From Galbibacter pacificus (GTDB taxonomy: Bacteria > Bacteroidota > Bacteroidia > Flavobacteriales > Flavobacteriaceae), in assembly GCF_029603165.1 (NCBI RefSeq), contig NZ_JAQSVC010000001.1, positions 992,001-1,056,000 of the forward strand: a stretch of 64,000 nt of DNA, given 5' to 3'. Below are positions 2,359 to 3,180 of this stretch, one piece after another. The position numbers and the translations under genes were made by a program. The notes under the pieces are model-generated. The model was not told where the DNA came from and did not search any database. It worked only from the letters and a program-made list of their open reading frames with translations. The number at the start of each line of letters is the position of its first letter. Positions within the stretch are counted from its first letter, which is position 1.

Positions 2359-2389
2359 TTGCATTGTTCTAGATGAACTACTACATTTG
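2359..2389 (+). promoter_or_regulatory. Promoter for the tRNA-Ser gene
   Basis: A TTG (2359-2361) and TACATTTG (2382-2389) are separated by 20 bp, a good match to the Bacteroidota TTTG / TAnnTTTG promoter. The predicted start is about 40 bp before tRNA-Ser. It may also serve the downstream tRNAs. Confidence 0.55.
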
Positions 2390-2434: not shown

Positions 2435-2518
2435 GGAGAGGTGCCGGAGTGGTAACGGAGCAGATTGCTAATCTGTCGGCGGGTAACTGTCGCCAGGGTT
2501 CGAATCCCTGTCTCTCCG
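2435..2518 (+). tRNA. tRNA-Ser(GCT)
   Basis: The acceptor GGAGAGG pairs with TCTCTCC (one G-U) and the discriminator G is at 2518. The anticodon stem 2460-2464 / 2472-2476 encloses a seven-base loop with anticodon GCT at 2467-2469. A long variable arm follows, as expected of a class II serine tRNA, and the T-arm contains GGTTCGAATCC. CCA is not encoded. Confidence 0.95.
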
Positions 2519-2561
2519 CTTTTATTTTTCGATGTTATTTATTTTAAAACCGAAAAAATTT

Positions 2562-2636
2562 CGGATGTAGCGTAGCCCGGTTATCGCGCCGCGTTTGGGA
2601 TGCGGAGGTCGTCACGCTTGAGGCGTGACCACCCCA
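2562..2636 (+). pseudogene. tRNA-Pro-like pseudo-tRNA with a replaced T-arm
   Basis: Positions 2566-2610 are nearly identical to the D-arm, anticodon arm and variable loop of the intact tRNA-Pro at 2900-2974, with only C to T at 2601. The normal T-arm (17 nt with the TTCGAAT loop) is replaced by a 19-nt hairpin at 2611-2629 (GTCACGC, loop TTGAG, GCGTGAC). The sequence then rejoins the tRNA with CACCCC. The 5' acceptor strand (TCGGATG) pairs poorly with CACCCCA. Without a T-loop it is unlikely to be a working tRNA. It lies immediately upstream of the GIY-YIG gene. Confidence 0.7.
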
Positions 2637-2653
2637 AACATATGAAATGAAGA

Positions 2654-2893
2654 ATGGATTATGTGGTTTATATATTGTTCAGCGAAGGTATTTCGCAATA
2701 TTATGCTGGGCAAACCGAAAACATTGAAAAAAGAATAATCAGGCACAATCGGGGCTTGGTGAAATCGACCAAAAGGGGAGTGCCTTGGAAGTTGATAAAA
2801 ATAATACCAGTTTCAAGCATAGCAGAAGCTATGAAACTGAAAAGAAAAGTTAAAAAACGAGGAATAAAAAGGTTTCTTGCCGATTTAACTTAA
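2654..2893 (+). CDS. Small GIY-YIG family protein, probably catalytically impaired
   Basis: This 79-residue protein belongs to the small GIY-YIG / UPF0213 group. The first motif is VVYILFS (4-10), the second YYAGQT (16-21), and the conserved Arg is in EKRIIRHN (25-32). The C-terminal block AEAMKLKRKVKKRG (57-70) fits the family pattern AEAxxLExxIKKRG, except that the Glu expected to bind the catalytic metal is Lys63 (AAA, one transition from GAA). It may therefore have lost nuclease activity. The gene sits between a tRNA-Pro-like pseudo-tRNA and the intact tRNA-Pro, and its stop is only 6 bp before the tRNA. This suggests that the gene and tRNA segments were inserted or duplicated as one unit. 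Confidence 0.8.
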   Translation: MDYVVYILFSEGISQYYAGQTENIEKRIIRHNRGLVKSTKRGVPWKLIKIIPVSSIAEAMKLKRKVKKRGIKRFLADLT

Positions 2894-2899
2894 CACCTT

Positions 2900-2974
2900 C
2901 GGGGTGTAGCGTAGCCCGGTTATCGCGCCGCGTTTGGGACGCGGAGGTCGCAGGTTCGAATCCTGCCACCCCGA
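2900..2974 (+). tRNA. tRNA-Pro(TGG)
   Basis: The acceptor CGGGGTG (2900-2906) pairs perfectly with CACCCCG (2967-2973). The anticodon stem CCGCG / CGCGG encloses TTTGGGA with anticodon TGG at 2935-2937. The T-arm GCAGG-TTCGAAT-CCTGC is intact. CCA is not encoded. It begins 6 bp after the GIY-YIG stop codon. Confidence 0.95.
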
Positions 2975-3054
2975 CAAAAGATGGAGGTCGTCGCGCTTGA
3001 GGCGTGACCACCCCGACAAAAGATGGAGGTCGTCACGCTTGAGGTATGGCCATC
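2971..3054 (+). repeat. 42-bp tandem repeat, two units, derived from tRNA-Pro 3' sequence
   Basis: Units 2971-3012 and 3013-3054 each start with CCGACAAAAGATGGAGGTCGTC. The first begins inside the 3' acceptor strand of the intact tRNA-Pro. Both contain the variable-loop segment GGAGGTC joined to the non-tRNA hairpin also present in the pseudo-tRNA at 2611-2629, and the first unit ends back in CCACCCCGA. The second has decayed to GTATGGCCATC. An apparent minus-strand reading frame across this stretch is antisense to tRNA and repeats and is not a gene. Confidence 0.75.
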
Positions 3055-3066
3055 TCAATTCACAAT

Positions 3067-3140
3067 GGTCGCGTAGCTCAGTTGGATAGAGCATCTGCCT
3101 TCTAAGCAGACGGTCCCAGGTTCGAATCCTGGCGCGATCA
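3067..3140 (+). tRNA. tRNA-Arg(TCT)
   Basis: The acceptor GGTCGCG (3067-3073) pairs with CGCGATC (3133-3139, one G-U) and the discriminator is A3140. The anticodon stem TCTGC / GCAGA encloses CTTCTAA with anticodon TCT at 3101-3103. The T-arm carries GGTTCGAATCC. A strong terminator follows directly. Confidence 0.95.
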
Positions 3141-3141
3141 C

Positions 3142-3180
3142 AAAAACCCTGCAACCATTTGGTTGCAGGGTTTTTGTTTT
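3142..3180 (+). terminator. Rho-independent terminator of the tRNA cluster
   Basis: AAACCCTGCAACC and GGTTGCAGGGTTT form a 13-bp stem with an ATTT loop, followed by a T-rich run to 3180. It lies directly after tRNA-Arg. Confidence 0.9.

Follow-up and report, generated by a model that had tools for sequence, protein, structure and literature searches.

A small GIY-YIG nuclease gene flanked by a hairpin-bearing partial tRNA and an intact tRNA: a candidate homing-type mobile element of tRNA genes in Bacteroidota

The window analysed here is a stretch of 64,000 nucleotides from Galbibacter pacificus (Flavobacteriaceae, Bacteroidota), and it contains a cluster in which tRNA-Ser, a pseudo-tRNA-Pro, a GIY-YIG gene, an intact tRNA-Pro, two partial tRNA-Pro copies and tRNA-Arg follow each other, all on the forward strand (Table 1). 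The preliminary description of this DNA had claimed that the T-arm of the pseudo-tRNA is exchanged exactly for a 19-nt hairpin, and that pseudo-tRNA and intact tRNA-Pro bracket the nuclease gene. Both claims were confirmed by direct reading, and the intact tRNA-Pro is placed by ARAGORN and Rfam alike. The pseudo-tRNA retains the D-arm, the anticodon arm and GGAGGTC, carries the hairpin instead of the T-arm GCAGGTTCGAATCCTGC and ends with CACCCC. That it is otherwise tRNA-Pro-like holds overall, but not for the 5′ strand of the acceptor stem, which reads CGGATG versus CGGGGTG in the intact tRNA-Pro (one base lost, others altered), nor for the anticodon stem, where one base is changed from C to T. 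Two downstream copies had been said to carry the same swap; this is true of copy 1, with one base different, but in copy 2 the hairpin has decayed (GAGGTATGGC). Together the two copies form a 42-nt tandem repeat (about 2983-3056).

Table 1. Features of the tRNA-Pro unit and its neighbours in the window (window positions).
Feature	Positions	Strand	Basis and remarks
Promoter-like box TACATTTG	2382..2389	+	Read from sequence; upstream of the tRNA-Ser/pseudo-tRNA/GIY-YIG/tRNA-Pro/tRNA-Arg cluster
tRNA-Ser(GCU)	2435..2519	+	ARAGORN, Rfam; adjacent on the upstream side, bounds the empty site of relatives on the left
Pseudo-tRNA-Pro	2562..2635	+	5′ part of the tRNA, then hairpin replacing the T-arm, then CACCCC
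Perfect 19-nt hairpin GTCACGC-TTGAG-GCGTGAC	2611..2629	+	Stands where the T-arm would be in the pseudo-tRNA
GIY-YIG nuclease gene, 79 aa, UPF0213/SLX1-like	2654..2893	+	ORF and Pfam; K63 versus E in 186/187 relatives
Intact tRNA-Pro(UGG)	2900..2974/2975	+	ARAGORN, Rfam; 3′ end of the unit
T-arm GCAGG-TTCGAAT-CCTGC of intact tRNA-Pro	2950..2966	+	Sequence; the arm exchanged in the copies
Gene-less downstream copy 1: GGAGGTC, hairpin (2990-3008), CACCCCGACAAAAGAT	2983..3024	+	
Gene-less downstream copy 2: GGAGGTC, decayed hairpin (3032-3050)	3025..3056	+	
tRNA-Arg(UCU)	3067..3141	+	ARAGORN; adjacent on the downstream side, bounds the empty site on the right

The pseudo-tRNA-Pro is not called as a tRNA by ARAGORN or by Rfam, and the predicted fold of positions 2562-2636 is not a cloverleaf. 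A tRNA-like RNA with a role of its own, which had been offered as an alternative, was rejected as a general reading on account of this fold; in addition, many of the loci read (uncounted) retain the 5′ part or the 3′ part of the tRNA alone. The Rfam scan of the window at the gathering score returned three tRNAs only and no group I intron around the gene. The unit holds no integrase, since a single 79-aa ORF lies between pseudo-tRNA and tRNA. The promoter-like box upstream of the cluster is similar to TAnnTTTG, the consensus of the Bacteroidota −7 promoter box. An ORF of 89 codons on the minus strand (2885-3154), antisense to the tRNAs, is very likely a spurious gene.

The nuclease ORF matches the Pfam family PF01541 with an E-value of 7.3e-10, and GIY-YIG was the only Pfam domain in the window protein, which has no HUH (Y1) transposase domain. 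The nearest solved structures are the UPF0213 protein 1zg2 (E 2.3e-14) and chains of SLX1 (E 1e-6 to 1e-5), and searches of PHROGs and NCBIfam gave only weak matches to homing or group-I endonucleases, under the NCBIfam cut-off. The proteins of the family consist of the minimal domain, of about 77-102 aa, in which the Tyr, Tyr, Arg and Glu residues are each conserved in 186 of 187 members. The sole protein among the 187 without Glu at the catalytic column is that of the window, which has Lys (K63) there, and this substitution suggests that the window nuclease is probably inactive. The median pairwise dN/dS was 0.09-0.25 in 10 of 12 groups, the other two being without a usable pair; by this measure the nuclease family is under purifying selection.

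Of 199 genomes from the same family, 31 (own genome counted) have a match to the window protein at E ≤ 1e-8, and a profile built from 23 such proteins matched 195 of 395 genomes of the phylum at E ≤ 1e-12. Two hundred loci were fetched: the family search contributed 30 (L009-L038), the phylum search its 30 best matches (L069-L098) and named genomes 80 (L099-L178), while 60 more (L179-L238) were hand-picked among the top entries for the phylum. After identical ORF sequences had been dropped, 189 remained. A tRNA called by ARAGORN lies within 250 bp of the GIY-YIG gene in 168 of these 189 distinct loci, and gene and neighbouring tRNA are co-oriented in every one of them (168/168). The tRNA is downstream of the gene in 102 loci (class A, to which the window belongs) and upstream in 66 (class B). 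By set, the tRNA-linked loci amount to 24/30 (own family, own locus counted), 23/26, 70/73 and 51/60, where the later sets are best-scoring matches and thus biased toward this nuclease family. Linkage extends to tRNAs of 12 amino-acid types; ARAGORN names 13, but the lone Cys call is a hairpinned tRNA-Pro copy. The nearest-tRNA labels stem from ARAGORN, and at two loci whose contigs end before tRNA-Pro (L018, L102) the label Ser is wrong. The window's own genome has three other PF01541 genes, and the 3.2-kb locus of each lacks a tRNA. It may be added that the hairpinned copy called tRNA-Cys(ACA), on the minus strand of L198 at 1533-1603, illustrates the risk that annotation takes such copies for working tRNAs.

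The nuclease genes of class A often extend up to or into the tRNA. In 61 of the 102 loci the stop codon reaches or passes the start of the intact tRNA (in one of them it lies beyond the tRNA; in 41 it is at one fixed place), and in 31 further loci it lies within 14 nt upstream of the tRNA. Where the stop lies inside the mature tRNA, RNase P cutting would yield a message without a stop codon, and a coupling of tRNA processing with nuclease expression is possible in class A.

Copies of the neighbouring tRNA were sought in the 171 of 189 loci with a tRNA within 430 bp, a copy being defined as a same-strand fragment of at least 9 nt of that tRNA, outside called tRNAs and no more than 600 bp from the gene. 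Such a fragment was found in 163 of the 171 loci and was absent in eight, as compared with 26/171 for the opposite strand and 43/171 for another isotype as controls. Several of the 18 loci outside this test end at contig ends; 10 of the 18 have a same-strand tRNA fragment of at least 14 nt, which in one case (L082) is hardly above its opposite-strand control. Perfect hairpins with a stem of at least 6 and a GC content of at least 50% are present in 136 of the 163 tRNA copies, versus 9.8 expected from random stretches of the same loci, and by this criterion 27 copies lack one. Among three His loci, two are without a tRNA copy and one is without a hairpin.

There were 180 non-native hairpins in all. 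At least one flank allowed 144 of them to be located on the tRNA, one extra hairpin with anchors in the wrong order being excluded, and 84 of the 144 start or end within 2 nt of an edge of the anticodon arm or T-arm. It must be noted that 32 of these 84 are left edges of the T-arm, nearly all from the related group at Pro-UGG, and hence are not independent. Fifty hairpins were placed by both flanks in order, and 19 of them are replacements of the anticodon arm, from 10 tRNA/side types belonging to Pro, Arg, Ala, Gln, Gly, Lys and Val. Many hairpins depart from a clean swap: there are insertions without loss of any tRNA base, and hairpins that cover half an arm (as for Asp). The commonest new stems are TCACGC, TCCCGC, TCCCGA, CCACGC and TGGCGC. 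Several arms are swapped within a single pseudo-tRNA in L016, and other copies with multiple hairpins are found in L103, L114 and L165. The idea that the pseudo-tRNA tracks the anticodon arm of its own tRNA was also considered and set aside, the excess being weak (16/21 versus 12.7 expected).

The distribution of the hairpin beyond the unit was followed with its T-arm-swap context, GGAGGTCGTCACGC-N3..6-GCGTGACCACC; 397 family genomes were scanned, of which 13 held a total of 23 matches, and the reversed control gave zero. These loci lie by tRNA-Pro or tRNA-Ser, the exception being a match in G619 which adjoins a GIY-YIG gene at a contig end where no tRNA is called. The linkage of the hairpin to tRNA and GIY-YIG genes that had been expected is borne out in this context, with a GIY-YIG gene beside 20 of the 23 matches (one match is at a contig end and two are a gene-less pair by tRNA-Pro in G627), but not for the bare motif TCACGC-N3..6-GCGTGA, which, in a search of 12 hand-chosen genomes, is found also away from tRNAs and GIY-YIG genes. 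With up to 3 mismatches, the window hairpin has five strand-wise matches at four places in its own genome, three of these places being at this locus, and it is therefore not a genome-wide repeat there. In a search of six hand-chosen genomes the sister motif TCCCGA-N3..9-TCGGGA proved to be dispersed, with 61 occurrences in G157 and none in the control. The hairpins of the element thus share their vocabulary with dispersed palindromes, and the hairpin may be a general palindrome rather than a part of the element.

Some further occurrences of such palindromes are recorded here in their own right. The dispersed TCCCGA..TCGGGA family of G157, for which the reversed control gave none, often reads TCCCGATAGCTATCGGGA. 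In L250 (G143), where tRNA-Ile lies near tRNA-Ala, perhaps in the spacer of an rRNA operon, a 3′ copy of tRNA-Ile has a TCACGC..GCGTGA hairpin in the T-arm region, and the fetched stretch has no GIY-YIG match. A repeat with TCACGC hairpins and GGCGGC-rich flanks, which is not at called tRNA genes, was seen in L240, L251 (G101) and L254 (G078) and is perhaps the end of another mobile element.

Tandem copies of the gene, scored as same-strand GIY-YIG matches 200-700 bp apart, are present in 54 of the 189 loci; 55 loci have at least two GIY-YIG matches, one of which (L098) was not counted as a tandem pair. Arrays of units of about 300-350 bp comprise three units in L011, four each in L016 and L076 and five in L092, and in L020 a gene-less unit of 97 bp is repeated between gene and tRNA. 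In G013 three units about 118 bp apart follow a tRNA-Leu (L247) with no GIY-YIG match in the locus, and the anticodon arm CTAGACTTAGGATCTAG of each is swapped for TCACGCTTTGGGCGTGA or a near copy of it. Two tRNA-Pro loci of G627 hold, respectively, a unit with its gene (L267) and a tandem pair of deleted units (L276). Tandem units of about 165-180 bp with the 3′ ends of tRNAs (Ser, Arg) were observed in L026, L064 and L065; L026 holds a GIY-YIG gene, and the fetched stretches of the other two gave no match.

A tree of the nucleases was built from 187 of the 189 proteins, two ORFs shorter than 55 aa being dropped, over 86 columns, and 102 of its 183 inner branches are open. The tRNA isotype, assigned to 169 members with some mislabelled (L018, L102, L198), changes 25 times on this tree, versus a minimum of 70 when shuffled, and class A/B changes 19 times versus 45 when shuffled. 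Clades with a single type of tRNA cross host families, as for Asn in f31 and f49 and for Asp in f29, f31, f45 and f49. The host-family label, with 67 changes on the tree, mixes two naming systems and was left unused.

Comparison with close relatives lacking the insert, which had been suggested as a check, revealed the empty site in genomes of the same genus. In five of six other genomes of the genus (G030, G200-G203; the locus of G199 was left out) tRNA-Ser is followed by tRNA-Pro without the gene, and none of the 29 relatives' loci (L040-L068) had a GIY-YIG match at E 1e-3. Several of the empty-site relatives retain, by eye, 8-10 nt similar to GATAACCA immediately 5′ of tRNA-Pro, and since a stretch like this elsewhere encodes the end of the nuclease, it is scar-like. 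By eye also, ORFs resembling the beginning of a tyrosine-recombinase gene lie downstream of tRNA-Pro in L040, L041, L042, L048, L057 and L060, and of tRNA-Arg in L043; given these integrase-like ORFs behind the same tRNA cluster in relatives that lack the nuclease gene, integrative elements may use the site too.

Closely similar elements also occupy two tRNA genes within one genome. In G665, 382 bp with 97% identity are common to two tRNA-Pro loci with unrelated flanks, and the homology begins within the pseudo-tRNA and stops at the 3′ end of the tRNA. The nuclease is broken at one of these loci, where it stops early and has the conserved Gly and His replaced. Pairs of similar elements at tRNA-Pro loci were also found in a Eudoraea MAG (90%) and in CANMLX01 (94-97%), where homology continues 40-70 bp past the tRNA, and, with 95% identity, in G177, where one contig ends before its tRNA; these pairs are less clear-cut than that of G665. 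No relatives were found in viral contigs searched with one alignment, in phages searched with two proteins (E 1e-5) or in plasmids searched with one protein. The proposal of the preliminary description, a mobile or duplicating unit which targets a tRNA and has the intact tRNA at one end, is hence well supported and applies far more widely than to the window, given the many tRNA types, the occurrence on both sides of the tRNA, the tandem arrays, the empty sites, the gene-less derivatives and the two occupied tRNA-Pro genes of a single genome.

Our preferred reading, to which we assign a probability of about 0.58, is that the units are mobile elements of homing type which specialise in tRNA genes and are common in Bacteroidota. 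A unit consists of a hairpin-bearing partial tRNA and a small GIY-YIG gene on the strand of the tRNA, placed just 5′ of the intact tRNA in class A, as in the window, or just 3′ of it in class B. The nuclease would cut the DNA within one arm of its cognate tRNA gene, and the break in an unoccupied tRNA gene would be mended using the element as template, such that its two sides pair with the pseudo-tRNA and the intact tRNA, respectively, and the repaired locus retains one working tRNA. The pseudo-tRNA would then serve as a cut-proof homology arm, with the hairpin in place of the attacked arm; without the targeted arm it would resist cutting. Out-of-register repair would generate the tandem arrays, and loss of the gene would account for units without one, the two 42-nt copies of the window among them. 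Linkage, co-orientation, hairpins at arm edges, arrays and target-faithful clades are directly supported by the sequence data, as are purifying selection, empty sites and the occupation of two tRNA genes in one genome by closely similar elements; what we infer, as parts of the homing model, is that the DNA is cut and where, how it is repaired and what the hairpin does. Among the features of a homing endonuclease, the catalytic Tyr, Arg and Glu are found in the family, though not in full in the window copy, and the gene lies beside its presumed target, of which empty alleles exist. Some considerations speak against homing: the intact tRNA at an occupied locus should also be cut, a bare catalytic domain gives no account of how a single tRNA is recognised, and target-faithful clades together with scars fit an old vertical inheritance with loss as well. 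The wider claim is made more tentatively, at somewhat less than even odds: that these units represent a new class of bacterial mobile element on tRNA genes, phylum-wide, marked by arm-for-hairpin exchange, in which the truncated tRNA would supply the homology arm and the hairpin either a recombination site or a cut-proof mark, with tandem multiplication, separate lineages for each tRNA type and gene-less derivatives. Such an element would probably be among the smallest known.

Since the nearest solved proteins are UPF0213 and the structure-specific endonuclease SLX1, a mechanism acting on hairpins or cruciforms is the main rival to homing. The hairpin, extruded as a cruciform or in single-stranded DNA, would be the site of cutting and exchange for the SLX1-like enzyme, units would move or multiply by way of the hairpin rather than by sequence-specific cutting of tRNA genes, and tRNA arms would be used because they too are hairpins, an arm swap being an exchange of hairpin for hairpin. 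The recurrence of the stems TCACGC, TCCCGC, TCCCGA and TGGCGC across arms and tRNAs with varying loops, the swapping of multiple arms in one pseudo-tRNA and the retention of the hairpin in gene-less arrays are all consistent with this, but hairpins with the same stems occur elsewhere without a trace of the unit, and the clades track tRNA identity; we consider this mechanism rather unlikely. That dispersed palindromes exist in some genomes, and that some hairpins are plain insertions, would also suit a passive course of events, in which a slippage copy of the tRNA decays, the nuclease persists by virtue of the tRNA promoter and palindromes drop in. Hairpins in 136 of the 163 copies versus 9.8 expected, their placement at arm edges, the purifying selection, the single nuclease family with target-faithful clades across the phylum and the homology in G665 that ends at the tRNA end make passive duplication very improbable. 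One may further speculate that gene and pseudo-tRNA constitute a regulatory or toxin-antitoxin pair, in which the GIY-YIG protein acts on the tRNA as RNA and the transcript of the pseudo-tRNA is a decoy, an antitoxin or an mRNA-processing device. The invariable co-orientation makes a single transcript possible, the class A stops inside the tRNA imply that RNase P cutting and translation would compete, and a swapped T-arm should block tRNA processing. Known GIY-YIG enzymes work on DNA, however, pseudo-tRNAs retain differing and often short parts of the tRNA, with that of the window predicted to lack a cloverleaf, and tandem and gene-less arrays are left unaccounted for, so that we regard such a pair as improbable.

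tRNA genes are classic landing sites of mobile DNA. Integrating islands at tRNA genes employ a tyrosine recombinase and leave their target intact after insertion. The present units likewise leave the tRNA intact, but that of the window has no integrase, the units measure only about 300-350 bp, and what is duplicated is the 5′ part (class A) or the 3′ part (class B) of the tRNA. The REP/RAYT system, with palindromes linked to a small nuclease gene of the HUH (Y1) transposase type and with gene-less copies, is similar in the association of palindromes with a small nuclease gene and in the gene-less copies; it differs in that the enzyme here is GIY-YIG, in that the palindromes lie inside tRNA copies, and in that the hairpin type of the window is rare in its own genome. 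MITEs are short, internally deleted, gene-less units which occur alongside a full one, a mode of life resembled by the deleted units of L276 next to the full L267 in G627, but unlike MITEs these units are tied to tRNA genes. Stand-alone nucleases of the UPF0213/SLX1 type share the domain and the size class, with homology over the domain. Stand-alone prokaryotic proteins of the Slx1 cluster are discussed in PMC1564403, the accessible part of which mentions tRNA three times, none of them concerning tRNA gene neighbours.

Among the published systems considered, the closest is phage SegB, together with other free-standing GIY-YIG homing endonucleases of T-even phages. SegB is reportedly treated in Brok-Volchanskaya 2008. 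In T-even phages it is a free-standing GIY-YIG gene beside tRNA genes, and its activity leads to tandem amplification of a tRNA and nuclease unit, of 718 bp in T6, with microhomology shared by the tRNA's 5′ end and the nuclease's 3′ end; homologues are reported in Bacteroidota phages too (PMC13096335). The two systems have in common a GIY-YIG gene by a tRNA, tandem units and a cut-and-repair logic, which for the present family we infer, and the microhomology is comparable to the class A ORFs that often end inside the tRNA. The present family differs from SegB in its location on bacterial chromosomes, its domain of about 77-102 aa, the hairpin-swapped partial tRNAs, the clades by tRNA type and the gene-less derivatives.

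Titles and the beginnings of abstracts among the literature matches listed, drawn largely from outside subscription journals, contained no description of hairpin-swapped tRNA copies, and a phylum-wide family of tRNA-borne nuclease elements of about 300 bp appears to be undescribed. Such a family would explain many of the tRNA fragments, and many of the small stand-alone GIY-YIG genes, of Bacteroidota genomes and would be a bacterial counterpart to phage SegB. It would also offer a compact system for exploring how a bare GIY-YIG domain locates one tRNA gene and how exchanges of an arm for a hairpin arise.
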